NCBI RefSeq assembly: GCF_019693215.1
Contig: NZ_CP081183.1
Location: forward strand, 623,226 to 687,225
Source of the DNA: Salinarchaeum sp. IM2453
GTDB lineage: Archaea; Halobacteriota; Halobacteria; Halobacteriales; Salinarchaeaceae
Reading direction: 5' to 3'
DNA: 64,000 nt
Positions 4,489 to 22,800 of this stretch are shown here, one piece after another (position 1 is the first letter of the stretch; the number at the start of each line of letters is the position of its first letter). A model generated the notes under the pieces. That model did no database searches. It was not told where the DNA came from and saw only the letters and a list, made by a program, of their open reading frames with translations. Both the position numbers and the translations under genes were made by a program.

Positions 4489-6771
4489 CTATCCACGAAA
4501 AAGTGAACCCGAGCCAGACTCATCGTCGACGTTGTCATCTGCGGAACCATCCACAGAATCGGAGACAGGGCTATTTTCAGCATCAGCGTCACTGTGAGCA
4601 GTAGAGACAGTGTCAGTTTCAGCGACATCGTTCTGCGATTCCGCTTCGCTATCATCGTCACGGTATATATAAAGTAATCCGATTGCAATGATTCCAAGCG
4701 TGCCACCACCGACAGTGGTTACAAGCAAGATCAATCCAAATGTATTGTCATCGTCGTCTTCGCCATTACGATCAGGTTCTTCTGGGGAAGGATCGGAAGT
4801 ATCATCAGGGGAGGAAGGTTCATCCTCAACTGCCGGTTCAGCGAGTACGAACACAGAAGGTGACGTAAGATCTGTCGTCACTGTTGTCTGGGCATCACTG
4901 GTAGTTAGCGTCTCTGTATCTGTAGTGATGTTGTGTATTGTTTCCTGAGTTCCGTCGTGATGGATCAACTGAAGGGGATCAGACACATTTGCTGTATATT
5001 GATCGAACAAATCAAAGAGTTGGACATCAACAGTTCCGACCTGCTCATTCTCAGCGATTAGTTCCGTGGTCGCCAGTACGGTTCCATCAGGATCAGAAAC
5101 CTGCTCTGGAACGGTTGATAGATTTCCAGCATACAGAGACTGTTCTGTAACGTCCTCACCTGTTGTCACAGAGGCTGCAAGCATTGAGGAGGAGAATGCA
5201 GCGGTACTTTCGTCCGAGACTGAATCGTAGGTGAAGACAGCCCGTTCTGCGTCAGTGATTGTACTTTCTGGTACTGCTGAGTAATTCGAATAGACCGAAT
5301 GCTGTATGTCTTTAGTAGTATCAAGAACGTCAATCGTAGTACTCTCAGTAAGCGTCGTGTCCTGCTTCGTGTAGGTTACTGCAATTGTTGTTGTGCCGGG
5401 ATGTTCAGCAGTGAACGTGCCATCACTAATCGTTCCAACAGAGTCGTTGGCAACGGTATAATCAGTAGTTTCATCGGAGGTGACGTCGTGTGAGGACCCA
5501 TCAGAGTAGACAGCAGTAAGTCCAATCTCATCAGTTGCATCAGGGACCATTGTTTCTGGAGCATCTGAGAAGTAAAGATCAGTCAGGACGGGTTCAACGG
5601 TAACAGTTGTTGACTCAGTTTGTTTTACACCGCCTTCAGAGTACGTGACTGACAGAGTAGCTGTCCCGCCAGCTTGAGCGGTAATGGTAGTTCCATCGAC
5701 AGAGACAATGCTTGGATCGCTAGTTTCGATGGATGTTGATTCATGAGATGTCACATCAGCATCTTGTGCCTCATCGAAGAGTGCCGTTGCTGAGATCTCT
5801 GCTGTTTGGTCGGGCTTTAGCTCGGAAGGTTTGAGATCAACAGCAAGGTCAGTTGGTGTGCGCTCTTCTACCGTTATGTTGATTGAGTCGGATATTCGAA
5901 TGCCTGTATCAGCATACGAAAACGTTATTTTGGCACTTCCAGCAGATTGTGCATTCAAACTTGACTCCGCAGCTACAATCGCATTCTTGTTATGTGAGGT
6001 AATGTTCGCATTTTCAGTTACTACTTGATGTGAGCCGCTTCTGTATTCGGCGGTAATAGTTACTTCAGGTGAGTCTCCCACAATTGGAGATTTGGTTTGA
6101 ACATCAACTTGGATATCGTCTAGTTTATCAATGACGTGAAGATCAGCAACTGTGCTGTATTCATTGTCATGGCTATCAGTGTATGTAGCACTGATCGTTG
6201 CTTCTCCTGGATCACGGGTTGCTATACGATCTCCATGTAGTTCCGCAACATCTGGGTTTAAGGAATCCAAATTAGCATCTTTGGTGATATCAGTTTCAGA
6301 TCCATCGTCACATACACCTATAACACTTAATTCGACAGAAGTTGCAACGGTAGTTTCGTGTGTTTCTAACTCTATGTATATGTCATCGACTTCTACGAAA
6401 GTGAGATCCTGTTCATACATAGAATTATCACCAACGGTGAACGATTCAATCGCCTGCGGTCCGTCAGAATACTCTTGATAGAATGTGATCTCATCACCGG
6501 TCGAAGCTGGAACAATAAGATCATTGTAACATCCTGAGTCTTCGACTTTTGTCGATGCCTCACCACCTGAGTCGCTAACAGCAACAATTTCGGTTTCCGG
6601 CTCAAGAGGGTCTCCAGATTCGTCTGCTGCGTGACCATAGAAGGTAACTGGATCCTCAGGTGCGTCTGCGCTAACAACAGGGACACCGACGCAAACTAGT
6701 GTGGCGATACAGGCAAAGACGATTGAACACGATACTACAGTTCGTGTAACGGAGGACTGCTGATTGTACAT
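4489..6771 (-). CDS. Secreted membrane-anchored protein with module B and Ig-like (BIG2) repeats
   Basis: Start taken at ATG 6769-6771 (MYNQQSSVTR), which gives a Sec signal peptide with hydrophobic core SIVFACIATLVCVGVPVVSA; an upstream ATG would add 24 unlikely residues. Length about 760 aa. Residues about 40-126 form module B (FYGHAADESGDPLEPETEI to YEQDLTF), also found in the protein at 16958-19873. Four or so bacterial Ig-like 2 repeats follow, with recurring patterns such as GTATLSVTYSEGG and GTTTIAVTYTKQD. Next come a domain resembling the PGF-pre-PGF type, a Pro/Asp/Ser-rich linker, one transmembrane helix (FGLILLVTTVGGGTLGIIAI) and an acidic cytoplasmic tail. It lies 80 bp downstream of the beta-helix gene on the same strand, so co-transcription is likely. 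Ligand unknown. Confidence 0.8.
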   Translation of the reverse strand: MYNQQSSVTRTVVSCSIVFACIATLVCVGVPVVSADAPEDPVTFYGHAADESGDPLEPETEIVAVSDSGGEASTKVEDSGCYNDLIVPASTGDEITFYQEYSDGPQAIESFTVGDNSMYEQDLTFVEVDDIYIELETHETTVATSVELSVIGVCDDGSETDITKDANLDSLNPDVAELHGDRIATRDPGEATISATYTDSHDNEYSTVADLHVIDKLDDIQVDVQTKSPIVGDSPEVTITAEYRSGSHQVVTENANITSHNKNAIVAAESSLNAQSAGSAKITFSYADTGIRISDSINITVEERTPTDLAVDLKPSELKPDQTAEISATALFDEAQDADVTSHESTSIETSDPSIVSVDGTTITAQAGGTATLSVTYSEGGVKQTESTTVTVEPVLTDLYFSDAPETMVPDATDEIGLTAVYSDGSSHDVTSDETTDYTVANDSVGTISDGTFTAEHPGTTTIAVTYTKQDTTLTESTTIDVLDTTKDIQHSVYSNYSAVPESTITDAERAVFTYDSVSDESTAAFSSSMLAASVTTGEDVTEQSLYAGNLSTVPEQVSDPDGTVLATTELIAENEQVGTVDVQLFDLFDQYTANVSDPLQLIHHDGTQETIHNITTDTETLTTSDAQTTVTTDLTSPSVFVLAEPAVEDEPSSPDDTSDPSPEEPDRNGEDDDDNTFGLILLVTTVGGGTLGIIAIGLLYIYRDDDSEAESQNDVAETDTVSTAHSDADAENSPVSDSVDGSADDNVDDESGSGSLFRG

Positions 6772-6851
6772 GTATACTCTTAATAACGTGGTGTTGGTTC
6801 TGGGTGTGAGCGCGTGGGGGGCAAGGCAAGAATCAATTAGCAAACCGATGG

Positions 6852-9611
6852 TTAGCCTCCTGGGTCGGGATCATATACTGGAGTTTGGATAGACCGATCG
6901 ACAGGGGTGGCTCCATCCTCAACATAGATCCAGTACAGGCTATAGCTCGATATCGTTGAATCAGCATACAGGCGCTTCGCAGAGTCAACAGTATAGGCGA
7001 CGACGTCAGTGTCGCCGTACTTTGTATCAGAATCTGAAACCTCAATTCCTGACAAGTCTTGATTGACAGAAACTGTGTTACTACTGCTCACGTCATAATT
7101 GGTACTGACAAGATTCCATCCGTCCTCAAGTGAGACATTTATTGAGGATTCATCATCAGTTGGTTCAGTTGCATATGAGAACCCATATCGAGTGTTGGCA
7201 TCAGACAGATGAAAGTAAAACCCATTATTGAGAGGTTCACCTGTAATAATATCTCCCGTATTGATGGGAAGGTCAACTGACTGATACTCTTCTATAGACG
7301 CATTCCAGGTGACGGTGTGTGGATCTGTCTGATCAAAATATACTGCCGACGGTTGTGGAATTGAGACAGGAACATAGCCAGATTCTGGTGATTGATGCGC
7401 CTCATGTAAGAGAGTAATAGAGTCAACGGGACCAAGATCTGTGTGAGGAATAGTGATATCAACCTCACCAGAGTCGATATCTGCTGCGTCGAATGATTCG
7501 GTCGGATCATCAATAGTAAGGTTTGAGATAGATCCAGAGTCAAGTTCTCCGGTGAATTCTACGCCAGCAATCTCAATGACGATAACTCCGGATGCCGGTC
7601 GAGGTTCTCCAGTATCACGAGGGTCATACGTTATATTCTGACCGGTAAAATTGATAGCTTGTTCTGACTCAGCAACTGGATCACGTTCTATCCCAAGAAA
7701 GTCTATCTCCGGTGATATATTTCCGACATCAACGACGGTGGCAAAGTCATATAGCTCAATCTCACCATCTCCTTTGTTAATTATCGGATCTCCATCCCCT
7801 TCACCAACACCGCCGGGCCCATTCGTTGAGTTCCACCAGTTACCATTCAGACGTAGAGAACGGTCATGTTTCGCTAAAATAGCTTTTTCGTGACTACTGG
7901 CAAAGATGCTATCTACAACTCTAGCAGTTGAAACAGTGTGTAGGGCCTTATGGTTGGAGTCAAATACACTACTACTAATCTGTGAAAATCCCGTATCAAG
8001 ATACAATCCTGTTGAAAAATTTTTGATATTGTTGTCGCTGATATATGAGTCAGCTGTACCTGTAACGGAAACCCCGGTGGTTATCACTTCATTTCTGAGA
8101 GAGACAATATCGTTTGATGAGATGTGTATATCACTATCGTGAATGATATCAATTGCCGGGGCATCAGTAACAGTATCAGACCTAGTCTCAGTGAGGCGTA
8201 CTAAGTTATTATTAAATTCCACGTACGATTCAGACTCAATGTCTACGATGGGCGTATAGCAAGATTGGATGGTACAGTCCTTCACATATAGTTTATTTTT
8301 TATATTCTTTGCAGAGATTACGGGCCCACATTTACTCTCAGAATTGTTGAATCGAAGATTAACCATTTGTATTTCTGGTTCAGTACCAAGAGTTGCGTCT
8401 GCGCCATCGGCTGGAGTGGCTATGTTCACTGCTCCACGTATCAGTGAGTGATTACTAGTGCCGGAAAGAGTGACTGGAGAATCTACTGTCACAGATGAAT
8501 GAAATTCACCTGCATGTATCTGAATTTCATCCTCAGCCGATGCACCATCCACAGCCTCTTGAATACCGAGATATGTCTGATCAGCGTTTTCAACAGGAGC
8601 AACTGCTGTGGTAAGATTCTGGTCGGCATACCACGGAGTCACCTCAATAGGTGTTGCATTAGTAACAGACAATGTCGCTGCGTTGCGATCTGGGGACAAG
8701 GCGTGCTGTGGATTGGTAAGTTCAGCAATGGTGGTAATATCTGGTCCATACTGATGACCCCACCAATTTGGAGCAAGCGTCAACTCTCCAGTTGAGCAGT
8801 CTGGCATATCGACCTCCATATGCGTGGAAGACGAGAATTCATTGTCAGCAATTACGGCAGCATCTATGTCATCTGTCGCTGAGTCAATGACTACCGTCAG
8901 GTCTGTGTCTGTAGCAAACGTATTATCCCGTATCGATATACCGCCGTTATCAGGACGAATATCAGCTATCTCCACAGAAAGCCCTGCTGCAACAGTATTC
9001 CGTTTGAATTCGACATCGACAGCAGAATCAACAACGATGGCGCGCTCACCCTGGTGGCTGAATTGACTGTCGTGAATTGTGAGTTCGTCTACCGACGTGT
9101 ATGCTGCAAAGCCAGTCGAAGGTGTACCGTTGACCACGATATCGGTAAGCGTAATATCAGTCATAGGTTCAGCTTCAGAAGTGGCGATTACTGCATCACT
9201 ATCGACATTCGCATCGTCAGTAGACGTAATCTCAAGTGAAGAAAGTACGACATCAGAACTAGTAATTTCAAACAGCTTCTGTGTCTCTGCCGGAGTGTTG
9301 ATGGTCGTCAGATCATCGGTGGCACTCGTGATCGTTACCGGCTGATCAATGACAATCGGAAGTTCAGGTTCAGCAGCCGGATCATATGATGCATCAATAT
9401 GGATGTCACCACCGTCAGCAACATGATCCAATGCCGAGTGAATATCAGATACCTCAGTCTCCGTTGTAGGATTGTCAGTGACAGTAATGGTTTTACCATC
9501 CGGTGCAGCAGCGGCAGTGCCAGCAACAAACCCTACAAAGAAAACCAAACAAACAACGATAGTGGCACTAATGCGGAAGACATCTGAGTGTTGGTATGGG
9601 AGGGCAGGCAT
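6852..9611 (-). CDS. Secreted parallel beta-helix protein with C-terminal module A
   Basis: 919 aa. A Sec signal peptide (about residues 1-36, core ISATIVVCLVFFVGFVAGTA) is followed by two right-handed beta-helix regions of the NosD/pectate-lyase-like type. These show short Asn/Ser-rich rungs such as DNNIKNFSTGLYLDTGF and paired NWWG/NWWN motifs (PNWWGHQYGPD; GNWWNSTNGPGG) that mark helix ends in many archaeal surface proteins. Residues 744-919 are module A: VSIPQPSAVYF, GFYFHLSDANTRYGF, GWNLVSTNYD, SLYWIYV. It recurs in the protein at 16958-19873. No transmembrane anchor is seen; the chain ends YDPDPGG, so it may be shed or held by a partner. The next gene downstream (4489-6771) carries a membrane anchor. 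No catalytic residues are recognised, so binding or structural roles are as likely as glycan cleavage. Confidence 0.8.
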   Translation of the reverse strand: MPALPYQHSDVFRISATIVVCLVFFVGFVAGTAAAAPDGKTITVTDNPTTETEVSDIHSALDHVADGGDIHIDASYDPAAEPELPIVIDQPVTITSATDDLTTINTPAETQKLFEITSSDVVLSSLEITSTDDANVDSDAVIATSEAEPMTDITLTDIVVNGTPSTGFAAYTSVDELTIHDSQFSHQGERAIVVDSAVDVEFKRNTVAAGLSVEIADIRPDNGGISIRDNTFATDTDLTVVIDSATDDIDAAVIADNEFSSSTHMEVDMPDCSTGELTLAPNWWGHQYGPDITTIAELTNPQHALSPDRNAATLSVTNATPIEVTPWYADQNLTTAVAPVENADQTYLGIQEAVDGASAEDEIQIHAGEFHSSVTVDSPVTLSGTSNHSLIRGAVNIATPADGADATLGTEPEIQMVNLRFNNSESKCGPVISAKNIKNKLYVKDCTIQSCYTPIVDIESESYVEFNNNLVRLTETRSDTVTDAPAIDIIHDSDIHISSNDIVSLRNEVITTGVSVTGTADSYISDNNIKNFSTGLYLDTGFSQISSSVFDSNHKALHTVSTARVVDSIFASSHEKAILAKHDRSLRLNGNWWNSTNGPGGVGEGDGDPIINKGDGEIELYDFATVVDVGNISPEIDFLGIERDPVAESEQAINFTGQNITYDPRDTGEPRPASGVIVIEIAGVEFTGELDSGSISNLTIDDPTESFDAADIDSGEVDITIPHTDLGPVDSITLLHEAHQSPESGYVPVSIPQPSAVYFDQTDPHTVTWNASIEEYQSVDLPINTGDIITGEPLNNGFYFHLSDANTRYGFSYATEPTDDESSINVSLEDGWNLVSTNYDVSSSNTVSVNQDLSGIEVSDSDTKYGDTDVVAYTVDSAKRLYADSTISSYSLYWIYVEDGATPVDRSIQTPVYDPDPGG

Positions 9612-9811
9612 AATTGCTTACATGGAAATTTTCAGTCAGCAGGCGGCAATATGTGTCGATAGTTCAACCTGAGTATTTATTTGCATTGATTTAGCCGCAA
9701 AATTAATTAAATAAAATTAAATAGCGATACTAACACGTGGTAAATTGAACACGTTCAGCGAAAAGAAATCGAACATATTAGTTTTCGGAGTACATAACAG
9801 AATGTACGACT

Positions 9812-10573
9812 GTGTATACCGGTGTGCTATTTGACGCGGAGGTTGTCGAAGCTGTTGCCGGAGGAACACCAACGTGGCTTGCGTTGATTTTCTTACTGTT
9901 TTCGTATTTAGGAAGTATCTATGTTATTGGTCCAGCAATGGTGTATGTCTATTTCCGGGGGGATGACCGATTAACAGCAACATGGCCAGGAATTGTACTT
10001 GGGGGATACGGATTATTCGTTATTTTGAAGGCATTGATTAATATTTCCCGGCCAGATGTGGCGTCACCACTTGCTGATGTTGGATTACCACCGCTGGTCG
10101 ATCAGTTGCATGTCCTTGCCGTGGGATTTGAAACAGGAAGTTTCCCCAGTGGCCATGCCATTGCAACCGTTGTTTTCTATGGACTGCTGATTCTCGATAG
10201 CGACTGGAAAACACAACGTCTTCGATTATTCCTGCTGTTCCCACTGATATTGTTAGTCGGATATAGCCGAGTAACGCTTGGCGTGCATTTCGTTGGAGAT
10301 ATCATTGGCGGATTCTTGATCGGGGCACTGTATCTCGGAGGGATGGTGTACCTGCGCCAGCAGTATCTACAACCTGCGCAAGTAATGTTCAGGGTGGCAT
10401 TCCTGATCGCTATTGGAGCCGCAATTGTTGAACCAGCACCAGATACGATTGGACTTGCCGTAATTGCAGGGGTATCAGTTCCACTTCAGCAGAAACTTGA
10501 TGAGTTCCAGAACACAGAAGCATCACGATATCGGCGTGTGTCACGGTATGTGCGTGACCGGTTGCTTTCCTGA
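9812..10573 (+). CDS. PAP2-family membrane phosphatase (undecaprenyl/phosphatidate type)
   Basis: About 253 aa with several transmembrane helices. The three-part phosphatase signature is complete: KALINISRP (KX6RP), PSGH in GSFPSGHAIATV, and SRVTLGVHFVGD (SRX5HX3D). Members hydrolyse lipid diphosphates or phosphates at the membrane, for example polyprenyl diphosphate carriers. The GTG at 9812 or one at 9824 could be the start. A second PAP2 gene (12647-13372) and a cis-prenyl diphosphate synthase (14324-15232) lie nearby, which favours a role in prenyl carrier recycling; substrate not provable from sequence. Divergent from the beta-helix gene across about 200 bp of A+T-rich DNA. Confidence 0.85.
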   Translation: MYTGVLFDAEVVEAVAGGTPTWLALIFLLFSYLGSIYVIGPAMVYVYFRGDDRLTATWPGIVLGGYGLFVILKALINISRPDVASPLADVGLPPLVDQLHVLAVGFETGSFPSGHAIATVVFYGLLILDSDWKTQRLRLFLLFPLILLVGYSRVTLGVHFVGDIIGGFLIGALYLGGMVYLRQQYLQPAQVMFRVAFLIAIGAAIVEPAPDTIGLAVIAGVSVPLQQKLDEFQNTEASRYRRVSRYVRDRLLS

Positions 10574-10735
10574 CTATTGTAAATACAATCTCGTTGTTCA
10601 GCCTGCAGCGGGATGTTTCAGACCAATTCTTCAGTTACACATGGATGATCTATCTTCAGTGAGAGCTACTATTTTTGCCGCGCTCTGACACCAACTCTTC
10701 AGATCAGTAGCTGAATAGAATTTGTATGTAATCAG

Positions 10736-12052
10736 CTACTGATATGGGTCAAATTCACGGCCAAACAGTACGAAATACACTACCCCAATCATGCCAATAG
10801 CAGAGGCAAGAATAAAGGAAAGTTCCGGGCTGACAAACTCCCAGAGAAAGCCACCAAGTACACCGCTCGGGATAACAATCAGGCCACGAACGAAATAGTA
10901 CGAGCCAGTAACCCGACCACCTGCACCCTGTTCGGCCGGTCCGACAATCAGTGCCTTGTGAGCTGGTAATCCTGCAAAGCGGAGTCCCGAAAACGCAAAC
11001 AACACAAGCAAGATCCAGACGTTTTCCGGGGCAAAAATGAGCAGGATGGGAAAGATTGCATATACGAAAAATCCAAGCCCAACAACAGGCTTGAGCCCGA
11101 CATACTCAGCGAGTTTTGCTGCTGGAGCCATTGTCAACAGCGCCACGAGCATCTCAATACCAAGGAGGACACCGAAAAATGCTGCTGGTGAAAGATCAAT
11201 TGTACCAAGGGCTGGTACCGAAAAGGTAAGCCCAATATCAAGCAGTTGTGTGATGACAAGGATGAAAAACGCGTAGACCATCCCATTGGCAAAGCGGACA
11301 AATGTATCTGCGACAAGTAATGGTCGAAGTTCGTCAGGAAGTGCGCGAATATCACTGATAATCTGCCCAAAGCCTTCGAATTCTTTGCCGATTGAATCTC
11401 GCTTTGCCACATAGAGGTAATGCTGAGCGATTGTTCCAAGCAGTCCAAAGACAATGGCAATTACAAGTACCCATAGAAAGCCGGGTATCAAATCATCAGC
11501 AACAAGCACAGCAACAATCAACGGCGCGAGTAAAAACGCAGTGCGTCGGAATGTTTCAGTGCTAGCAAATCCACGTGCAAGTTCATCCGGGCTGGTGCTT
11601 TGCTTGACAATCGCATAATGGCCGCCGATACCAAATGACTTCCAGCACTGGGCCAAGAAAAGTCCGACAAACACCCAGATCCACGGCTCGAGAGTTAAAC
11701 CTGCAACCACGACAGCTGGGATATACGCGGAGACAAGCCAAACAGCAAACCCAATGGTCGAGATGAATCCAAAAACGGTTAGCGCATATCTCGATCCAAC
11801 GCGATCTGAAACAACGCCACCGTAGTATGGATAGACAGCACCGATGATATTCCCAAGTGTTGCAAAAAGTCCAACCACAAAGCCACCGGCTCCTAAATAC
11901 ACGAGGTACTCCGGCAGGAATCGGTTGGTCATCTGGAAGCCAAGGCTAAACGCAAACATCGCAAGCGAAAGAACCAGCACATCTCGTTCAAGTGAAAGAA
12001 ACCGTCGAAATGCATCGATTGGACCAGAAACCTCGACTTTTTCCTGTGACAT
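10736..12052 (-). CDS. Major facilitator superfamily transporter
   Basis: 438 aa with about 12 hydrophobic segments. The first-loop motif appears as GGVVSDRVGSRYA between helices 2 and 3 (compare GxxxDRxGRR), typical of MFS carriers. The start ATG at 12050-12052 follows a short hydrophilic N-terminus (MSQEKVEVSGPIDAFRRFLS). Two six-helix halves are separated by a polar loop near residue 220 (YVAKRDSIGKEFEGFG). Substrate unknown; no drug- or sugar-specific motif is recognised. It sits tail-to-tail with the upstream PAP2 gene. Confidence 0.85.
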   Translation of the reverse strand: MSQEKVEVSGPIDAFRRFLSLERDVLVLSLAMFAFSLGFQMTNRFLPEYLVYLGAGGFVVGLFATLGNIIGAVYPYYGGVVSDRVGSRYALTVFGFISTIGFAVWLVSAYIPAVVVAGLTLEPWIWVFVGLFLAQCWKSFGIGGHYAIVKQSTSPDELARGFASTETFRRTAFLLAPLIVAVLVADDLIPGFLWVLVIAIVFGLLGTIAQHYLYVAKRDSIGKEFEGFGQIISDIRALPDELRPLLVADTFVRFANGMVYAFFILVITQLLDIGLTFSVPALGTIDLSPAAFFGVLLGIEMLVALLTMAPAAKLAEYVGLKPVVGLGFFVYAIFPILLIFAPENVWILLVLFAFSGLRFAGLPAHKALIVGPAEQGAGGRVTGSYYFVRGLIVIPSGVLGGFLWEFVSPELSFILASAIGMIGVVYFVLFGREFDPYQ

Positions 12053-12258
12053 GTGGATTAGTAGTATAGTGGTGTACCATCTGCTCCCGATGAGTATACA
12101 CGGAAGAGAGCTAATTCCATATTGAGACTCGTCTTACTAGACAGTTATGCTGATTCCAGCGTTTTGTGCAGGAAAACCACACGACACAGTGATATTCAGG
12201 ATCAGGGGAGATGGTGATTTCCGGCTTCCTTTGAGACGAGTGTCGATCCGGTGAGGAT

Positions 12259-12391
12259 TCACAGAGTCGCCGATTCCTTCGTGATTTGCTGGCCAGCGAC
12301 CGCTATCACGTCCTTCCTTTCGAGGCTACGGAGTGCTTCCTCGAGTTCGGAGACGGTAGACTCATTATCAAGTTCCGCTTTGTTGTAGCCA
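12259..12391 (-). pseudogene. Remnant of a small, possibly winged-helix protein
   Basis: The minus strand shows GYNKAELDNESTVSELEEA, then LRSLERKDVIAVAGQQITK and a stop at 12259-12261. No ATG/GTG is present and the upstream frame is closed, so only the C-terminal about 43 residues remain. The pattern (helix, then LxxLExKDVI) resembles the recognition end of a winged helix, but this is weak. It lies in about 590 bp without an intact gene. Confidence 0.4.
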
Positions 12392-12446
12392 GTGTTGCAT
12401 TAATACGAAGTGAATATAAATAACTTCGTACTTTCGCAACGAGCCG

Positions 12447-12538
12447 CTATGCGATCAGGACGACCGAGTCGTCTTCGAAACCGTCCATCGTCTCCTGAAT
12501 CCGTCGCAACTGTTCGTCCACGCCTTCGAGTACTCGCT
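12447..12538 (-). pseudogene. Remnant of a short acidic coiled-coil C-terminus
   Basis: The minus-strand frame reads ERVLEGVDEQLRRIQETMD and GFEDDSVVLIA before a stop at 12447-12449. A different frame just upstream reads FWELIEEPSE, suggesting a frameshifted gene. Composition is clearly halophilic. No family recognised. Together with the remnant at 12259-12391 it marks decayed coding DNA between the MFS and PAP2 genes. Confidence 0.35.
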
Positions 12539-12646
12539 CGGCTCCTCAATCAGTTCCCAGAACGTAATAATAGAAACTTGACCAGTGTAGCCCAACGAGG
12601 ATATTGCGGGTTCAGTCGCCTCACAGGCAATCCGATCAGCGGTGAT

Positions 12647-13372
12647 CTATCGGATCGAAACAACGAATTGAGCAATACGATTGCGGATAGACGGTAACTC
12701 AACGATCTTCCAGCCAACAACTGCTCCAACAGTTCCAGCGAAGGCAATTAGGCTACGGGAGCTTGCCGCTGTAAAGATCACAGCAGCGAGTGCAAAGACA
12801 AGTGCAACAGCAAAGCTACGCTTAGGCTGCTCCCAGAGGAGTACTCGAGCAATGCCAAGATACAGCGCGCCAATCAGGATGGCTGCAATGACATCAGCAA
12901 GATAGTGGACCCCAAGACCGACACGGGAAAACGCGACCATCGCGATCAGCACACCAGCAGTGAGGTCACGCTGCCATGATTTACCAGTTGAGAAAAACAA
13001 TGCCAGTCCACCCCACAGAATTGTCGCTGCCATTGTGTGCCCACTCGGGAAGCTATAGGGGCTAACAGCGACAGCATGCCATTCCTCTGGTGGTCGAGAG
13101 AGTCCAAACAGTGCCTCAAGGAACACAATCAAGCTGAGGCCACCAAAGACGATGGCGATGAATGCGACGGTGTTATCACTTGCAATCCGCGTCAGTTGTT
13201 CAGGGGAGCGGATATTCTGAACACGGGTGAAAAAGTCACCAAGATACAGCGAAGCAAGAACGGCTACAACGAGTAATAATTCGCCAGGAAGCGAGCCGAG
13301 AACAAAGATCCATTCGACAGACTCGGGGACAGCACCCCGAATTGATTCTGTTACGCCGAGATCACGATTCAT
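12647..13372 (-). CDS. PAP2-family membrane phosphatase, second copy (altered first motif)
   Basis: 241 aa, start ATG at 13370-13372 (MNRDLGVTES). Motif 2 is SFPSGHTMAAT and motif 3 SRVGLGVHYLAD, both intact with the two catalytic His. The first motif reads EALFGLSRP, so the usual Lys of KX6RP is Glu. Six or so membrane helices. Context (PAP2 paralogue at 9812-10573, cis-prenyl synthase at 14324-15232) suggests lipid diphosphate dephosphorylation. The Lys normally helps bind phosphate, so activity or specificity may differ. Confidence 0.82.
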   Translation of the reverse strand: MNRDLGVTESIRGAVPESVEWIFVLGSLPGELLLVVAVLASLYLGDFFTRVQNIRSPEQLTRIASDNTVAFIAIVFGGLSLIVFLEALFGLSRPPEEWHAVAVSPYSFPSGHTMAATILWGGLALFFSTGKSWQRDLTAGVLIAMVAFSRVGLGVHYLADVIAAILIGALYLGIARVLLWEQPKRSFAVALVFALAAVIFTAASSRSLIAFAGTVGAVVGWKIVELPSIRNRIAQFVVSIR

Positions 13373-13526
13373 TAGTTCATATCATTGTGTTTCTGGACGG
13401 TTAGACAACGCTGTACAGCGGAAATACGTTTGTGCTCATAAATAAACGTCCGTATTCGCTAATGAAATATAAATACCGGAGCAATGAAGCAGGTAGAACC
13501 CGAATATAAGAGCAATAGAGATTAAT

Positions 13527-14237
13527 ATGGTTTCGCGACGGCAAGTATTAGGAACAATTGGTGGAGCAGCACTGGTCGGGACAGCAGGCTGTGTTGATTT
13601 TGTCACTGGTGAGGGCCTATTCTATGAATCCGCACAGGCAACGGTTAGTGAAGAGGCGCTGAATGAGACCGGATACGCCGAAGACGAAATTGATTCTTTC
13701 GGCATTGATGAGTCAGTTGGTGCATTTGGCATATCCCGGACAGTGGAGATTACCAACTGGCAAGCCGAGTACGAACGGACAGTTGACATAGATGGCATAG
13801 ATTCATTCTTCGAAGCAGGTAGTATTGATGAGATTACTGAAGCTCCATATTCGTTTGTGGCGGTAAGTACACCACAGGTGAGTGTATTCGGACAAGAGCT
13901 AAATCCGGTTGGAAATATGGATGCAGCAGAACTAATTGACAGAGTAGAGGGTCAATACGATGGGATCGCCAATATTGAGGAGCGTGAAGAAGTAGACGCA
14001 ACGGTCCTTGATGAAAATACGACACTGACACGGTTCGAAGCAGAGGCCAGTGTTGCTGGAATTGAAGAATTCCCAATTATTATTGAGATTACAGAAGCAG
14101 TCGAATCGGAAGATGACCTAGTACTAACGGTTGCGACGTATCCTGACTTAGAAGAATTTGGAGAAAATCTGGTTGAGGACAATCCTGGAGCGGAAGAATC
14201 TGCAACGCTACGTGGCGGTGTTGAGCACCCACAGTGA
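13527..14237 (+). CDS. Tat-exported lipoprotein, DUF6517 family
   Basis: 236 aa. The N-terminus MVSRRQVLGTIGG carries twin Arg at positions 4-5, and the lipobox GTAGC places the lipidated Cys at residue 22. The rest (ATVSEEALNETGY, NWQAEYERTVD, FVAVSTPQVSVFGQELNPV, LIDRVEGQYDGI) matches the layout of the haloarchaeal DUF6517 family, whose function is unknown. Predicted to be anchored to the outer face of the membrane after Tat export. Start ATG 13527. About 85 bp separate it from uppS; possible co-transcription. Confidence 0.8.
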   Translation: MVSRRQVLGTIGGAALVGTAGCVDFVTGEGLFYESAQATVSEEALNETGYAEDEIDSFGIDESVGAFGISRTVEITNWQAEYERTVDIDGIDSFFEAGSIDEITEAPYSFVAVSTPQVSVFGQELNPVGNMDAAELIDRVEGQYDGIANIEEREEVDATVLDENTTLTRFEAEASVAGIEEFPIIIEITEAVESEDDLVLTVATYPDLEEFGENLVEDNPGAEESATLRGGVEHPQ

Positions 14238-14323
14238 TACCTATCTGATTGTCATATTTGACGTGTCACCACAGCTGATCAAAATCCATCAGATTCATTA
14301 AATAAACTACCATACTGGAATAT

Positions 14324-15232
14324 GTGATCCGTGATCGAGTCCGTCGAGCATATGAGCGACATCTTGAACGAACGATCACAGACCCTCCACAACATATTGC
14401 TGTGATTCAAGACGGGAACCGCCGATATGCCCGCAAAAAAGGTGCTGAACGGGAGACCAAAGGCCATCACAAAGGGGCCAAGACAACCGAGCAGCTACTG
14501 GATTGGTGTCAGGACTTTACTATTCAGGAGCTAACCTTGTATGCATTCTCAACAGAGAACTTCAATCGGCCACAAGAAGAACGCGAAGAACTGTTTGACC
14601 TCATCGAAGAGAAACTGTACGAGTTTGCTGAAAGCACGATGGTCCATGAAGAGCAAGTGAAAATCGTCGCGTTAGGTGAACGGAGTGAATTACCACAGCG
14701 TGTTCGGGCCGCAATCAGATATGCAGAAACCCAGACACAGGGCTACGATCAGTTTCGATTAAATGTGGCACTGGCATACGGCGGCCGATCAACGTTACTC
14801 GGAGCAACAAAACAAATTGCACGTGATGCAATTGAAGGCAACGTCGATCCAGAAGAAATCGATGTGGAAACAATCAAGGACCACCTGTATGAGGAGCCAA
14901 TCCGGGATGTAGACCTGATTATCAGAACAGGTGGTGAAAAACGGACCAGTAACTTCCTGCCGTGGCATTCCAATGGCAACGAAGCCGCTGTCTACTTCTG
15001 TACACCATACTGGCCATCATTCTCTCGAAGTGACTTCTTACGAGGCCTCCGTACCTATGAGCACCGACAAGAGTCATTCCAGCAATCCAGAGTACAACGT
15101 GCCTTAGCGCTACTGCGAGAACTTGGATCAGCAGAGCTGGAAGAAGCACGAGAAATACTAAGCCGGACGAATACGGATGATCCAGAGTTACAGAGCGCAA
15201 TTGAAAATAACTCTGGAGCAAAAGGCCGTTAG
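14324..15232 (+). CDS. uppS: cis-prenyl diphosphate synthase (undecaprenyl diphosphate synthase family)
   Basis: 302 aa. Family motifs in order: HIAVIQDGNRRYA with the catalytic Asp at about residue 30, STENFNRP, LNVALAYGGR, DLIIRTGGEKRTSNFLPW, and YFCTPYWPSFSRSDFLRGL. The enzyme adds isopentenyl units in cis to an allylic starter (geranylgeranyl diphosphate in archaea) to make the polyprenyl carrier used in N-glycosylation and S-layer glycan assembly. GTG at 14324 gives MIRDRVRRAYERHLER; an overlapping ATG two bases earlier is out of frame. Neighbouring PAP2 phosphatases could release the monophosphate carrier. Confidence 0.93.
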   Translation: MIRDRVRRAYERHLERTITDPPQHIAVIQDGNRRYARKKGAERETKGHHKGAKTTEQLLDWCQDFTIQELTLYAFSTENFNRPQEEREELFDLIEEKLYEFAESTMVHEEQVKIVALGERSELPQRVRAAIRYAETQTQGYDQFRLNVALAYGGRSTLLGATKQIARDAIEGNVDPEEIDVETIKDHLYEEPIRDVDLIIRTGGEKRTSNFLPWHSNGNEAAVYFCTPYWPSFSRSDFLRGLRTYEHRQESFQQSRVQRALALLRELGSAELEEAREILSRTNTDDPELQSAIENNSGAKGR

Positions 15233-15316
15233 GCAGTGGAGATTATGCGAAAAAGGTTATGACAGGGCAGACGGCGAGGACCACATGAAACACTGTCGAT
15301 AGGTTGTTGTGAACTA

Positions 15317-15366
15317 CCCCACCCTACTCGCTCACCGCTGACGCGGGTCGCTTCTTGAGGGTGGGG
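15317..15366 (-). ncRNA. 3'-end stem-loop of the TnpB element (element end and probable omega/guide RNA part)
   Basis: ccccaccct (15317-15325) pairs with agggtgggg (15358-15366) across the end of tnpB. IS1341-type elements carry a structured right end, and their tnpB 3' region is transcribed as the TnpB guide RNA (reported in haloarchaea as sense-overlapping transcripts). Near-copies of the hairpin without tnpB lie at 16822-16876 and, inverted, at 52295-52329. RNA function is inferred. Confidence 0.45.
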
Positions 15367-16580
15367 CTTCCTGTTTCCACGACGCGCTTTGCAGGAACAA
15401 CCGCAGTTCCCGCAGGGAGCGCAGGCTCCACAGGCGTTGATTCGGAGTGTCCCATTCCTAGTTCAGAAAGACCGCGAAAAAGAACATTCAACGCGGCATT
15501 CAAATCTCTATCCGCTTCAAACCCACATGATGGACACGAATGTTCACGTATCCACAGTGGTTTATCTGTCTCCACACCACACTCTGCACACTCTTTGGTC
15601 GTCCCCCTTGGGTCAACCGCAACGAAGTGCGTTCCCTCTCGCTCACACTTGTATTCCAGTAGTTCGGTGAAGGTATTCCACGCCGCAGACGCCGTGTTGC
15701 GGCTGTTGCGCGGCGATTCCAGCATTCCTTTCACGTTGAGGTCTTCAACAGCCACAAGGTCATACTCCCGAGCGTAGTATGCCGAGAGTTTGTGCAGGAA
15801 ATCACGCCGCTTACGCTTGATTTGCTGATGACACTCTGCTACTGTCTGGCGTTGTTTCTCCCAGTTGTTCGACCGATGTTCTTTGCGCGAGAGACTCCGT
15901 TGCTCCCGTTCCAAGCGGTCGCGCTCGTCCGAAAGGTCAAGTGAGCCAACTGCCACACCGTCCGTATCGTGGGCGTACTTCAGAATCCCCACGTCAATGC
16001 CAACCATGTCGTCAGTGTTAATCTCATCCAGTGACGGTTTCTCCGGTTTTTCTTTGTCGTCAACGGCGAGAGAAGCGTACCATTCTCCAGTGGGTTCTTT
16101 CTTGAGTGTGACTTCTTTGATTGTTTCATCGTCGGGGATGTCTCGGTGACACTCTATTGGAATATCCGCAAGTTTCGACAGTGAAAGGACAGTCTGGCCG
16201 TTCTTCTTGTCGAACTCGAAGCCAGACTGAACATACGTGAAACTGCGGAACTCTCTGGGAAGTTTCCAGTTGAGACTGCCGACGCTGTACCCTTTCTTTT
16301 TCAGTTCAGAGAGCGCTTTGATACTGTCTTCAATCCGCATGACAGCAGCTTGTGCGACCGTTGCGTACAGGTCGTTTAATTTATCCCACCAGTCTTTGAG
16401 GGCGGGAAGTTGGTCACGGACTTGTCGTACACGTTGATTGAGTGTTCCCGCCGATTCGGGAATTTTGTCAAACTCTCTGAGCGCGTGGTTGTAGAGTTGC
16501 CTACAGGTATCGCGGTGGTAATCCAACACCTCACGCTGTTGGTCAGTTGGTTTGAGTTGGAATCTGTAGGCGTAGTGCAT
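15324..16580 (-). CDS. tnpB: TnpB, RNA-guided nuclease of an IS1341-type element
   Basis: 418 aa. The RuvC-like triad is intact: Asp in GIDVGILKYA, Glu in VAVEDLNVKGM and Asp in FEADRDLNAALN. A four-Cys zinc finger (CAECG, CPSCG) lies between the last two. The N-terminus MHYAYRFQLKPTDQQ and the WED/REC-like region are complete, so the protein is probably functional. Four bases separate its ATG from the stop of the small DUF2080 gene upstream. No Y1 transposase (TnpA) is present, so mobility would need one in trans. TnpB cleaves DNA at element-specific targets with a guide RNA from its 3' end. Confidence 0.93.
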   Translation of the reverse strand: MHYAYRFQLKPTDQQREVLDYHRDTCRQLYNHALREFDKIPESAGTLNQRVRQVRDQLPALKDWWDKLNDLYATVAQAAVMRIEDSIKALSELKKKGYSVGSLNWKLPREFRSFTYVQSGFEFDKKNGQTVLSLSKLADIPIECHRDIPDDETIKEVTLKKEPTGEWYASLAVDDKEKPEKPSLDEINTDDMVGIDVGILKYAHDTDGVAVGSLDLSDERDRLEREQRSLSRKEHRSNNWEKQRQTVAECHQQIKRKRRDFLHKLSAYYAREYDLVAVEDLNVKGMLESPRNSRNTASAAWNTFTELLEYKCEREGTHFVAVDPRGTTKECAECGVETDKPLWIREHSCPSCGFEADRDLNAALNVLFRGLSELGMGHSESTPVEPALPAGTAVVPAKRVVETGSPTLKKRPASAVSE

Positions 16581-16583
16581 TGG

Positions 16584-16724
16584 TTACTCGGTCGGTTCTG
16601 ATGTACGGACGATTTTCACGTCTGCGCCGCGCCAGCGTTTTGGGACGAGGACGTGTGCGCCGTTGCCGGTGGGTTTCACCTCGCCGTCGATGACTTCGTG
16701 GCCTTCAATTTCGTGTCTATCCAT
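16584..16724 (-). CDS. DUF2080 family transposon-associated small protein
   Basis: 46 aa, too short to be noticed by most gene callers. It begins MDRHEIEGHEVIDGEVKP and ends VKIVRTSEPTE; the middle GNGAHVLVPKRWRG is the most characteristic part. DUF2080 proteins are repeatedly found just upstream of haloarchaeal tnpB genes. They resemble AbrB/SpoVT-type small beta proteins, but no role is established. Start ATG at 16722-16724. Regulation of tnpB or of its RNA is plausible but unproven. Confidence 0.88.
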   Translation of the reverse strand: MDRHEIEGHEVIDGEVKPTGNGAHVLVPKRWRGADVKIVRTSEPTE

Positions 16725-16821
16725 CACCAGAGTTTAGACATTGTTTCAACATAAATCTGCCGGTTCGTGGGGCTGTGGGTTGAGTGGAGAACGTGTCTGA
16801 GGGACGAAGACGGCGGTGTAT

Positions 16822-16876
16822 CCCCTCCCTACTGCGCTACTCGGCCTTCGGCCTGCTTGCTCCTTGAGGAAGGGGG
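16822..16876 (-). repeat. Second IS1341-type end hairpin upstream of the TnpB element
   Basis: cccctccct (16822-16830) can pair with most of aggaaggggg (16867-16876), and the intervening layout (actcgg near the start, ctccttgagg at the end) is a diverged copy of the 15317-15366 hairpin. No coding remnant accompanies it. It may be the end of an older element into which, or next to which, the present one moved. The stretch 16725-16957 holds no gene. Confidence 0.5.
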
Positions 16877-16957
16877 CTTACCGCCTAAAATCAGCTAAAA
16901 AGAGAGCAATGAGCGGGCTATCAAATAAAGAAATCAGGTTTGCGAAAATTCGTGAAC

Positions 16958-19873
16958 TTACTGACGTAAGAGTTCTGAGATACTTAGATTCTCGTCAGTC
17001 TGCTGTTGCTGATAGAATAGGTATATTAGAAATGCGAGAATGACAAGAAGGATGATGAGAACCGGAATCAGCATCCACGTCGAGAAGAATCCATCTTCTT
17101 CTTCCTCGTCAACTTCGTCAGTGTCGTCTTCTTCAACATCAGCAGTAATTGCGAACAGCGAGAAGTCTGGTACCTCGGTGCGAAGCGTAATTACATCATC
17201 TGTCTCCTCAGTTGCAGTGATCTCGAGTGTTTCCCACGTTCCGGCGGTGTCGTTGTATCGAACGACAGACAGATTGTCAACATCACCATTGACATCATCA
17301 ACAGCATCAGTTGAGACATTCATCAGCGTGGAGCCGGATTGGTCAGTCGCAGCATCCGGAACGTCGAGTTGAGACGTAACAATAGTCTCATTGTCTCCAT
17401 CAAATGGTTCACCAACCTCCGGTGGAGTCTGGTTTAACAGTGTCGTTGTAACAGCACCACTGATTTCACCTTGAACACGGAGTTCCTCAAGTGATGTTGC
17501 ACCAGTAAATCCGTAAATGGTCTCATCAGCGTCTGAATCGTATGTTGGATCATTGTTTGTTTCGGCACGTTCTGCCGTCACGTTCTGTGAAATATTGACC
17601 AGATCACGAATATCATCTTCATCATCGAGTACGTCAGGGTTTGACAGAACTCGAAGTGACGCCGTGTCGTCATTGCCCTCGTATGTAGCCTCAATATCAA
17701 CGACGCCTGATCCCACCCCTGTGACTGTTGTATCATCAACCGAAGCAATGTCGTCATCGGCACTGGTGATGGTTGCGTCATCAGTTACGTCGATATCTGT
17801 ATCGTTACTGAGTTGTGCGGTCACGGTAGCTTCAGTTGTCCGGTCGACACGGATTTGATTAGCATCGAGTTCCAGTTCAATCTCCTCAACTGCAGCAACC
17901 ACACTCACCGTCGCCTCTGCAGAATCGTTGGCTGATGCAACAGTAAATATTACATCGCCAATATCATCGACAGCGGTTTCGTATGTAAATGTATTAGAGA
18001 ATGTATCACCAGCGCCAATCGTCACATTCTCTTCAGTAGCTTCGAGTTCATCATCAACAAGGAACTCAATATCCTGTGTTCCTTCAAGATCACCAGTGTT
18101 TTCAATTTCATAGTCAATCTCAATATCATCACCTTCGGTAACTTCGTCTGGTGAACCAGTGATGGAAACCTCAAAGTTCGGATCTGCTAAATCAAACGTG
18201 AGATTACGCTCAAATGTACCATCCTCGTAGTCAATCGGACTTTCTTCTGATGTAGGCCCATCTTCATCGCCAAATCTGAATGAAACCTCATCAGCATCAT
18301 CGGCACTAAGCGTTAACTTGGATGCAAACGCTCCCTCATCCGCATAGAACCCATCTTCATCGACTGTAGTGCTGTTTGATTCCACAATACCGTCGTCATC
18401 AAGAGCAACAGCGTAGATTTCAGTCCCTTCTTCTAATGGTTCATCATCACCATCCAATGCTTGACCATAATAGCCCGTCGGCAGCCCCGGGCTACCATCA
18501 GGACGGTCTGCGGGTTGAATACTAGTTGTTCCGACGGCACCAGAGGAACCAGACCCGTCATTTGCCGAGGAAGCAGTTGACGCAGTACTGGTACTTTGAG
18601 TAGTTGAATCGAAGGATACACTGCCATCATTGACTGACGCAGTGGCTTCATCATTTGCAGTTCTAATTGTTACATTGTACGGAGTATCAACATTATCAAC
18701 ATTGAATTCTGCATTGATAGATGCATCTGGATCTAAGTCTTTGACCAACTGCTGGTCTGTAAAGTCATTATCAATGACTTCAAGTGTCACGATCTGAGTT
18801 CCGCTGGCATCTCCGTCGTTGTTAATTGCTGCTTCGATAGTGTCGCCGTTGTCGTTCACAATCCCATCAATATCATCGATGAAGAACTCAGCAACATCAT
18901 TCTCAAGAACATCATTGAATCGTGCATCGGTGTTATACGAGGGATCATCAATAGTCCGCTCTCCAATTTCGTCATCAGCTTCTAACCAGTATGCTTCAAA
19001 CTCAGCAATTGGTCGATCAGGCTGATTAATCACGCCAAAATCAGCGTCATAAACTGTGAGATCATCATCGTCGAAGTCAATACCACCAAGGTCATCGTTG
19101 ATTGCTGCAGGAGTTTCATCTGGGTCAGAGATATTGTAGTTTGAGCCGACAAAATGCCAGCCTTCACTGATCGTTACCTCCTCATGGCCAGTCGAATCAT
19201 CATCGAATTCAAGCCCAAGTCGGGCATCAGCATCGGCGTCAAAGTACCATCCTTCGTGTAGATCTACCGTCTCAGTTGTGTACTCATCGGTTGGGCCATT
19301 ATCAGATGGCGTAACGTATGCATCTTCAGTCGGATCCCACTGGTAGCTTCCTGTCACGTTCTCTGTGTATAGGTCTGCATTCTGTGGTATCGAAACAGAG
19401 CTGAAGCCATTATCAGTGAGATTTCGCACTTCATGAACAATGCGGGTGCTTGTCGTCGCAACAGTCTCTACGTCATCAGAATTAGATTCATATAGCAGGT
19501 CAACAGACGCATCATCTGGATTACTCAGGTCATCAGGAAACACGCCCACATTGGTCGGATCAATTTCTGTATCAAATGTTCCGTCGGTGATATCATCATC
19601 GTTGATACTTGCAACTACGCTTTGTTCAATTGCAACATGATACTCGCCGTCAGTATTTGTAACACCATCAGCTGATACTGTGACAGTATCATCGTTAACA
19701 ACGCCAATAAAATCAGCATCAATTTCGAATGACTCTACTTCAACATCCGTTGATGACTGTGTTTCTGTCGGAGATGGGGCAGTAATGTTGACTGCACCAG
19801 CAGCGGCAAACAAAACGAGCACTGTCACAACGAGAAGAACGCGAAATGGTCTATGAGCCTGTGTATCTATCAT
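16958..19873 (-). CDS. Mosaic secreted surface protein combining modules A and B, membrane anchored
   Basis: About 971 aa from ATG 19871-19873 (MIDTQAHRPFR); a longer frame would add 19 residues before the signal peptide (core VLLVVTVLVLFAAAGAVNI). Module A (coding 18932-19408) has SSVSIPQNADLYTE, GWYFDADADARLGLEF, EGWHFVGSNYN and YWLEADD, as in the protein at 6852-9611. Module B (18182-18487) has YYGQALDGDDEPLEEGTEI and FERNLTF, as in the protein at 4489-6771. Then follow a CARDB-like domain (ENTGDLEGTQDIEF), a BIG2-like repeat, and a PGF-pre-PGF type domain (VVRYNDTAGTWETLEI to FSLFAI). An acidic linker, a transmembrane helix (MLIPVLIILLVILAFLIYLF) and a short cytoplasmic tail complete it. 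Function unknown. Confidence 0.82.
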   Translation of the reverse strand: MIDTQAHRPFRVLLVVTVLVLFAAAGAVNITAPSPTETQSSTDVEVESFEIDADFIGVVNDDTVTVSADGVTNTDGEYHVAIEQSVVASINDDDITDGTFDTEIDPTNVGVFPDDLSNPDDASVDLLYESNSDDVETVATTSTRIVHEVRNLTDNGFSSVSIPQNADLYTENVTGSYQWDPTEDAYVTPSDNGPTDEYTTETVDLHEGWYFDADADARLGLEFDDDSTGHEEVTISEGWHFVGSNYNISDPDETPAAINDDLGGIDFDDDDLTVYDADFGVINQPDRPIAEFEAYWLEADDEIGERTIDDPSYNTDARFNDVLENDVAEFFIDDIDGIVNDNGDTIEAAINNDGDASGTQIVTLEVIDNDFTDQQLVKDLDPDASINAEFNVDNVDTPYNVTIRTANDEATASVNDGSVSFDSTTQSTSTASTASSANDGSGSSGAVGTTSIQPADRPDGSPGLPTGYYGQALDGDDEPLEEGTEIYAVALDDDGIVESNSTTVDEDGFYADEGAFASKLTLSADDADEVSFRFGDEDGPTSEESPIDYEDGTFERNLTFDLADPNFEVSITGSPDEVTEGDDIEIDYEIENTGDLEGTQDIEFLVDDELEATEENVTIGAGDTFSNTFTYETAVDDIGDVIFTVASANDSAEATVSVVAAVEEIELELDANQIRVDRTTEATVTAQLSNDTDIDVTDDATITSADDDIASVDDTTVTGVGSGVVDIEATYEGNDDTASLRVLSNPDVLDDEDDIRDLVNISQNVTAERAETNNDPTYDSDADETIYGFTGATSLEELRVQGEISGAVTTTLLNQTPPEVGEPFDGDNETIVTSQLDVPDAATDQSGSTLMNVSTDAVDDVNGDVDNLSVVRYNDTAGTWETLEITATEETDDVITLRTEVPDFSLFAITADVEEDDTDEVDEEEEDGFFSTWMLIPVLIILLVILAFLIYLFYQQQQTDENLSISELLRQ

Positions 19874-20345: not shown

Positions 20346-22745
20346 TTACTGCATTACTTTCTCCCACAGGATCAACGTTGGTGGCAAAACAAGGATTGCA
20401 GTCAGGAACGAGTACAGCACACTGATTGACATCAAGATCCCGAACTGGCCAAGAATTGGAATAATCGCCAAGATAAGTGCTGATGCACCACCAAGTGTAG
20501 TCAGCATACTACCAGTCAGTGCACCACCAGTACCACGAAGGGTTGTCATGAGTGCTTCGTAGCTATCATCTTCGTACTCATCGATAAACCGGTGGGTGAT
20601 ATGGACAGAATACGCCACTCCAACCCCGATTGTAATTGAGAGAATTGTTGCGGTCATTGCATTAAGTGGAATCCCAATCAGCGGCATTGTACCAACTAGT
20701 AGCACGACTGTCACGACAATCGGGACAAGGTTAGCCAGTCCGATGGAGGCATACCCTTCGAGGACGTGGTAGATGAACATTAAGAACAGTGCTGTGGCGA
20801 TCAGCGCAATGATCAGTCCCAGTATCGCAGAGTCAAAGATCAGATCACCAATTTGCTGGTAAACGACAATCGTACCGGCCGGAGTTGCTTCATAGGGATA
20901 ATCTGCGGCCATTGACTGGATGTCTTCGACGATTTCTTCGTCATCAGCATCGGCTTCAACATCATACTGGATCGTTGCATACCGATAATCGTCGGTGACA
21001 TATTCGCGGGCATCATCACCGTACTCTGACGCAAAGAGATCATCAAGTAATGGGCGGACGTTTTCATCCGGAGCTCCAGAGTCCGTCGTATCACTTGCTT
21101 CAAGTTTGTTTGCAAACTCGGGATCATCATCAGCGTAGCTGTGCATAACATCAATGATGCTCTGTGAATCCGCCATTCCCTCGTCGTCAGTGATTATCGT
21201 AGAAGGCGGATTCTCTCCAACGCGGTGCAGTTGCTCAAGACTACCATCAGCGTGCATCGGTCCTTTGATATAGAGCTCAACTTGGTCGTCATCACCGGAC
21301 GCAAAGGTGTCTTCGATATAGTTGATAATCTCCGTTGAAGAATACTCACCCGGTGTCATTGGATCAGGGAACTGATAGACATATGCCGGGAGATCCTCCG
21401 GTGGAAGGAAGTCATCATCGTCGAAGGTTGTATCAACCTGCACAGCTGCGATCCCACCACCGACGGTAATTAATCCAACAACGAGTAGCAATGCAATCGG
21501 AGCCTTGCGGCCGATGATTGCTCCTGCTGGCAGAATTTTGCCAAGCAGAGAATCTTCTGAACCAAGTGGCTGGGATCCAAATTCAGGAAGGTTGTATTGT
21601 TCCCGAAGGCGGTCAAGATAGACCTTCATTGCTGGGAAGAATATGCCAAAAATCAGGAACGTAAAGACCACGCCGAAGGCGGCAACCAATCCGAATTCAG
21701 CAATTGGCCCAAGATCACTGATTGCATTGGCACCGAATCCAATCATTGTTGTTCCGGCAACAATGAAAAACGCAACCAGAAGTTGGTCGGTTGCAGCATC
21801 CATACTCTGTCCAATATCTTGATCTTGCACTCGTTCTTCCCGATAGCGGTTAACAGCGTGAATGCCGAAGTCAACGCCAATTGCAAGTAACAATGGGGGA
21901 ATCGCAATCATCATCTCAGAGAATGGGACACCAGCAAGGCCGGTGAATCCAAACGTCCAGATAATGACCATCGCAAGCGATGTAAGACCAAGTAGTAGAT
22001 CAACCGGATCACGGTAGGCAACGATCAAAAACAGCAGGATAAGGACCACAACAACGGGGATTACAAGCCCAAGCGAATCGCCGATAATTGCATCGAACTC
22101 TTCATCGATTAACCCGTCAGAGAGCATCATGTACTCGCCAGGATAGGAATCGCTAACACGATCTGCGTACTGCTGGATTGTATCAGTATCGCCAGAGATA
22201 TCCAGAATAGTCAGTGATGCTGCTGCGGATTGATCTTCAGGATTATAATCTTCATCAAGTAAGTCATCCAGTCCAGTTTCTTCAAGAAGTTCCTCGGTTT
22301 CTCGTTCAACTGTACTATCGGGAGCTGCCTGCAGGACATCGTGTTGCTCCTGTGGCGTTTCAGCGGCTGGATCAATTGACTGGGCAACACCAGGAGCAAC
22401 ACCGGTAACACCCTCAACATCAAGTCCAGGGTGATCATCGATTTGTGCAATGACACGAAGATTTCGCTCAAGTCCATCGGGCGTGAGTACATTCTCATCG
22501 CGATGGATCATCTGAAGGCTGTTTGTATCCTCGCCATAGGGGGCAGTAAACTGATCATCAATATTTTCGCCTGCATCATATGCATCAACACCTTCAGCGA
22601 ATTCCTCAGTTCCTTCCTCTGCTTCAACATTGACAAGACCGACAGCAAAGACACCTGTCAGCGTGAGAAACAGGAGAATAATCAGTCCTGGATAGCGGAC
22701 AATCAGCGTTCCAAGCCTATCAAGGATATCTTCAACAGTACTCAT
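20346..22745 (-). CDS. RND-superfamily exporter, MMPL type
   Basis: 799 aa with two repeats of one helix, a large extracellular domain and five helices. The first repeat keeps the helix-4 motif GVDFGIHAVNRYREE. In the second the equivalent reads GVGVAYSVHITHRF, so the proton-relay Asp is Ala. Such asymmetry suggests that only one half couples to ion flow. It is 55 bp downstream of the COG1361-type protein and on the same strand, so they probably form an operon under the divergent TetR-family regulator. Members export lipids, hopanoids or hydrophobic compounds; cargo here is unknown. C-terminus complete (PPTLILWEKVMQ). Confidence 0.9.
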   Translation of the reverse strand: MSTVEDILDRLGTLIVRYPGLIILLFLTLTGVFAVGLVNVEAEEGTEEFAEGVDAYDAGENIDDQFTAPYGEDTNSLQMIHRDENVLTPDGLERNLRVIAQIDDHPGLDVEGVTGVAPGVAQSIDPAAETPQEQHDVLQAAPDSTVERETEELLEETGLDDLLDEDYNPEDQSAAASLTILDISGDTDTIQQYADRVSDSYPGEYMMLSDGLIDEEFDAIIGDSLGLVIPVVVVLILLFLIVAYRDPVDLLLGLTSLAMVIIWTFGFTGLAGVPFSEMMIAIPPLLLAIGVDFGIHAVNRYREERVQDQDIGQSMDAATDQLLVAFFIVAGTTMIGFGANAISDLGPIAEFGLVAAFGVVFTFLIFGIFFPAMKVYLDRLREQYNLPEFGSQPLGSEDSLLGKILPAGAIIGRKAPIALLLVVGLITVGGGIAAVQVDTTFDDDDFLPPEDLPAYVYQFPDPMTPGEYSSTEIINYIEDTFASGDDDQVELYIKGPMHADGSLEQLHRVGENPPSTIITDDEGMADSQSIIDVMHSYADDDPEFANKLEASDTTDSGAPDENVRPLLDDLFASEYGDDAREYVTDDYRYATIQYDVEADADDEEIVEDIQSMAADYPYEATPAGTIVVYQQIGDLIFDSAILGLIIALIATALFLMFIYHVLEGYASIGLANLVPIVVTVVLLVGTMPLIGIPLNAMTATILSITIGVGVAYSVHITHRFIDEYEDDSYEALMTTLRGTGGALTGSMLTTLGGASALILAIIPILGQFGILMSISVLYSFLTAILVLPPTLILWEKVMQ

Positions 22746-22800
22746 TGTATGGAAACGGCCGATGGATGCTTAGTGATCAGTACTACTGCCAAAGGGGGAT

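Follow-up and report, generated by a model that had tools for sequence, protein, structure and literature searches.

A recurrent gene pair of Halobacteriota, apparently an undescribed means of retaining diverse secreted proteins at the cell surface

To our knowledge, little is known of how archaea, which have no outer membrane, retain particular secreted enzymes and adhesins at their surface, beyond archaeosortase anchoring and S-layers. In cohesin–dockerin systems, a docking module is carried by varied secreted proteins and the cognate module by an anchored protein. Substrates of the PGF-CTERM/archaeosortase A system are instead self-anchored, each by its own C-terminal signal. The S-layer of Sulfolobus acidocaldarius has two components: SlaA, which is predicted to be soluble and beta-rich, and the membrane anchor SlaB, whose N-terminal beta-sandwich domains face SlaA and which ends in a C-terminal transmembrane helix (PMC10903991). 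Here we describe two protein modules, A and B, encoded by neighbouring genes in Halobacteriota, which by analogy appear to work like SlaA/SlaB or cohesin–dockerin while belonging to neither.

The A/B pair resembles SlaA/SlaB in combining an unanchored protein with an anchored partner that bears a predicted beta-sandwich at its N-terminus, and a chain of the SlaA/SlaB assembly, 8qox_B, was a low-significance Foldseek match (E = 6.5e-3) to the model of a fused A–B protein. It differs in that it occurs in another phylum, shows no sequence homology to SlaA or SlaB in profile searches of PDB chains, varies in its cargo body, and has B proteins whose final membrane segment is either plain or of the PGF type. 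As with cohesin and dockerin, varied secreted proteins are tagged (here with A) and the partner module, B, is on an anchored protein; in contrast, cognate A and B genes adjoin one to one, and Pfam scans found no cohesin or dockerin match in any scanned protein. Many B proteins have at their end a PGF-type signal like that of archaeosortase A substrates, but A proteins, unlike those substrates, have no such signal of their own. Archaeosortase A is encoded in the genome that we started from; a search with PF18204 found no PGF-CTERM there, and the anchors in that genome are, by hydropathy, transmembrane segments. The C-terminal PGF signal (TIGR04126/PF18204) was recognized in the B proteins of loci L024 and L032. 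The pair is not described in the open-licence papers that were searched.

The window, the whole stretch of DNA that was analysed, comprises 64,000 nucleotides from Salinarchaeum sp. IM2453. The three open reading frames singled out in an earlier note on this DNA are present where it placed them, all on the minus strand: P0001 (4489–6771), P0002 (6852–9611) and P0003 (16958–19873). P0002, the putative secreted cargo, has a signal peptide, a body resembling a right-handed beta-helix of the NosD type and a C-terminal module A (residues 738–919; 6855–7400, minus strand), which is supported by homologues and by a profile match at 630080–630610 in contig numbering; the profile finds this copy in its own genome with E = 3e-96, the copy itself being inside the model. 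No C-terminal membrane segment was detected in P0002 by hydropathy. Its beta-helix, taken as given in the earlier note, is supported by NosD-type matches, none of which reaches its curated cut-off (PF05048, E = 9.9e-5, 22.3 bits against 23.6; TIGR04247, E = 3.3e-11, 42.4 bits against 300). Module A is preceded by a segment of ∼110 residues (7401–7742, minus strand) that BLASTP finds in other A proteins, alignments of P0002 to L024 and L135 running from residues 612–627 onward.

A gap of 80 bp (6772–6851, minus strand) separates P0002 from the downstream gene for its presumed anchored partner, P0001. In P0001, a signal peptide is directly followed by module B (residues 37–128; 6388–6663, minus strand; alignment and profile match), then by about four Ig-like repeats and a PGF-pre-PGF-like region, these parts being assigned mostly by reading the sequence, and then by a transmembrane segment (residues 678–703; 4663–4740, minus strand; hydropathy and sequence reading) and a 57-residue acidic tail. 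Hydropathy peaks at 2.11 within the last 120 residues. Beside this gene, at 3010–4007 on the minus strand, lies a transposase-like protein spread over two overlapping frames (3010–3504 and 3471–4007), which we take to be a decayed IS110-type element.

P0003 carries both modules in a single chain, consisting of a signal peptide, the pre-A segment, module A (residues 148–316; 18926–19432, minus strand; alignment and profile match), a linker, module B (residues 461–563; 18185–18493, minus strand; alignment, profile match and AlphaFold2), CARDB-like and Ig-like parts, a PGF-pre-PGF domain (residues 847–911; 17141–17335, minus strand) and a C-terminal transmembrane segment (residues 933–954; 17012–17077, minus strand; hydropathy 3.45). 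By hydropathy, a transmembrane segment lies close to the C-terminal end of both B-bearing proteins of the window. The PGF-pre-PGF assignment made in the earlier note stands for P0003, which scores above the TIGR04213 cut-off (30.8 against 28 bits), but no such domain was detected in P0001. The module A of that note is genuine; P0003 residues 39–314 align to residues 641–916 of L021, and the region common to A proteins (P0003 residues 39–318) starts ∼100 residues before the boundary proposed.

BLASTP and profiles bear out the proposal that each module occurs twice, in the adjacent genes and in the fused one. With filtering on, P0002 matches P0003 over module A with E = 5e-12 and P0001 matches P0003 from module B onward with E = 2e-6; switching off filters and composition statistics gave stronger but overstated values. 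Aligned alone, the two copies of A are 32% identical and those of B 40%. One profile for each module finds exactly two copies, and no more, in the 2.66 Mb genome; chance matching of low-complexity acidic sequence was dropped as an explanation on this ground.

The check proposed in the earlier note was that A and B should recur together, adjacent or fused, in other haloarchaea. Seed profiles, made independently for A and B from the two window copies only, were used to search 195 genomes of the order; A was found in 15 genomes, B in 18 and both in 13, as compared with 1.4 expected (p = 1.4e-14). In 13 of 17 A hits, B lay 134–436 bp downstream on the same strand. As to the four remaining hits, one genome (G078) had A on one short contig and B on another, a second (G182) had two long A proteins with neither a B nearby nor a terminal membrane segment, and a third (G087) gave a marginal A hit. 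When enlarged profiles were applied to 392 genomes, A was found in 44 and B in 72, 42 of the 44 A genomes also having B (p = 2e-34); among genomes with strong A hits, B was present in 27 out of 27. In G240 and G273 the A and B genes are convergent, yet remain neighbours.

Wider searches yielded 66 adjacent A-then-B gene pairs, some from genomes that belong to the phylum but not to the order, among which there are presumably methanogens. They also revealed a type II A-like domain (consensus GWNFV...GYWVY) encoded upstream of more distant B domains, which is related to type I by profile–profile comparison (probability 97%, E = 2e-11). Because the proteins that went into the type II profile were picked for an adjoining B, one of them being fused, the adjacency that it shows in haloarchaea, where 45 of 70 hits had B within 5 kb, is partly circular; the other 25 had no recognized B downstream, and 28 of 96 B hits had no recognized A within 5 kb upstream. 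Outside the order this circularity does not apply, and proteins in which the type II profile detects a terminal A-like domain again precede B proteins there. The pair is spread across the phylum, more widely than had been proposed. A narrow A alignment, used in a search for related loci, matched Natronolimnohabitans sp. A-GB9 and Halobellus captivus. A tblastn search of plasmids with a whole A protein gave no match; B domains were found in this way on three named plasmids, on two of them beside a protease or beta-helix gene. The pair on Natrialba magadii plasmid pNMAG02 is annotated as ‘S8 family serine peptidase’ and ‘CARDB domain-containing protein’, and on a Halostagnicola larsenii plasmid one member is labelled a right-handed beta-helix protein and the other hypothetical, indicating that public annotation handles the pair members separately. 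Variant arrangements were also seen: in L184, two tandem A-type proteins upstream of a single B protein and, in L195, a chain with an A-type protein that itself begins with B.

In the 66 pairs, the gap between the A and B genes has a median of 20 bp, and in several cases the genes overlap by 4 bp. The median distance from the end of module A to the C-terminus is 6.5 residues; the module ends within 60 residues of the C-terminus in 47 of 66 pairs and farther away in 19, and some of these 19, several S8 peptidases among them, have 200–400 residues beyond it. Module B begins near residue 34, directly behind a signal-peptide-like segment. C-terminal membrane segments were detected by hydropathy in none of 66 A proteins, as compared with 61 of 66 B proteins; a PGF motif lies close to the end of 22 of the 66 B proteins. 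PGF-CTERM matches also occur among B proteins, and PGF-pre-PGF matches in several of them. The earlier note's view of the unanchored member as a beta-helix subunit therefore holds as to its lack of an anchor, but the cargo is often not a beta-helix: of 44 A-protein bodies scanned, 15 matched Beta_helix and 11 Peptidase_S8, the rest being Ig-like or without assignment, while outside the order PKD and NHL domains were also found. A frameshift splitting one gene was considered and dropped, since nearly every B protein has a signal-peptide-like segment of its own.

Fusions of A and B in one protein are found in P0003 and in three other genomes of one genus (L154–L156, in G165, G155 and G089), and in all four the domain order is the gene order of the pairs. 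By BLASTP, the A region of P0003 has its best matches in L023, L132 and L020 and the B region in L020 and L133, L132 and L133 being overlapping stretches of a single contig. The best matches of the two regions therefore coincide on the same branch, as expected from fusion of an adjacent pair. Those of P0002 and P0001 differ from those of P0003, and the two systems of the window accordingly do not look like recent duplicates.

The distances between A modules and between B modules are correlated (r = 0.72 over 69 pairs, against at most 0.11 when the labels were shuffled 500 times), although species relatedness yields such a correlation too. Comparison of two pairs within one genome removes this confounding. 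In G070 and G050, where the two pairs belong to different subfamilies, the B subfamily tracked the A subfamily in 45 of 45 and 43 of 43 decisive comparisons; six other two-pair genomes offered almost no decisive comparisons, and the power of the test in them was near nil.

Neither module was matched to a named family, in line with the earlier note. For A there is no Pfam hit of note and no NCBIfam model, and a profile search of PDB chain sequences found no relative; AlphaFold2 prediction of module A from four sequences gave a mean pLDDT of 48 and was not used. The same PDB search gave no relevant hit for B, but B falls in a known fold class: AlphaFold2 predicts the B module of P0003 to be all-beta, with confidence mostly ∼90 or above, and Foldseek matched 5-hydroxyisourate hydrolase, CnaB and Ole e 1-type allergens with modest E-values (2.8e-3 and above) for a query that was a longer chain of mostly low confidence. 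We predict from these models that B is a transthyretin-like beta-sandwich, the fold class to which PF13620 and CnaB belong. No family match was significant (PF13620 matched three of 17 B domains, best E = 0.015), and such a family denotes a fold rather than a gene-pair partner.

We think that A and B probably form a two-protein surface-retention system of cargo and anchor. The upstream gene would specify an exported protein with a variable body and module A at or near its end, and the downstream gene a membrane-tethered protein, held by a transmembrane segment or an archaeosortase-type PGF signal, with module B exposed at the N-terminus of the mature form. B would most probably recognize A and keep the otherwise free A protein at the surface; in P0003 a single chain would do both jobs. 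Adjacency, order, module positions, anchor asymmetry, cargo diversity and recurrent fusion are observed, and from them we infer the A–B contact and its retention purpose. Overall, the interpretation in the earlier note, that the separate proteins act as a complex, is supported, the complex itself being likewise inferential. Opinion is evenly balanced on a broader proposal, that A–B docking is an ancient, phylum-wide and unnamed system of Halobacteriota which tethers unrelated secreted proteins, proteases included, through a neighbour-encoded partner with cognate specificity between A and B subfamilies.

Alternatively, A and B could be mobile surface-protein domains, whose genes lie together for operon co-expression and whose products occupy the same layer without binding each other. 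Both proteins do carry common archaeal surface domains (Ig, CARDB and PGF-pre-PGF), some A and B hits stand alone, and no A–B interface was demonstrated, the AlphaFold2 model of the fused region (pTM 0.35) being confident for B alone and uninformative on the interface. However, the fixed order, the position of the modules at facing termini and the anchor asymmetry all argue against independent domains, as do recurrent fusion and the neighbourhood kept after inversion to a convergent arrangement, and we consider this explanation unlikely.

Less probable still is descent by fission from one long A-then-B protein, the halves of which would reassemble with no role in display. The gene order matches the domain order of P0003 and L154–L156, and the 4-bp overlap in several pairs would fit such an origin, but the two-gene form is far commoner, both in haloarchaea and in other genomes of the phylum, and 64 of 66 B proteins have an N-terminal hydrophobic segment of their own. 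We give least credence to module A being a C-terminal export or maturation signal, with B a membrane protein that processes or delivers the cargo rather than a stable receptor: although A is found, like sorting domains, at the C-terminus of unrelated cargos, the B proteins scanned have no recognized enzyme domain, and A lies internally or at the N-terminus in P0003, L025, L026, L132 and L136. If cargo and anchor do dock as we propose, the A/B pair offers a concrete and testable retention mechanism, brings together as functional pairs many proteins whose present annotation is hypothetical, beta-helix, S8 peptidase or CARDB, and might be the source of a display tag suited to high salt.

Other features of the window may be mentioned. 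An acidic protein with near-identical repeats of ∼40 residues (VEIRAEGDVDADNIDISDVGGSVQITAGENIDVDNNIDIEDI) is encoded on the plus strand at 16–2331 and has only a weak DUF7305 match. The G+C content of the whole window, 48.7%, is low for a haloarchaeon. At 20346–25059, on the minus strand, the gene of a transporter-like membrane protein, which we assume to be of the RND/MMPL type, adjoins that of a CARDB/NPCBM-type surface protein, possibly a further surface pair.
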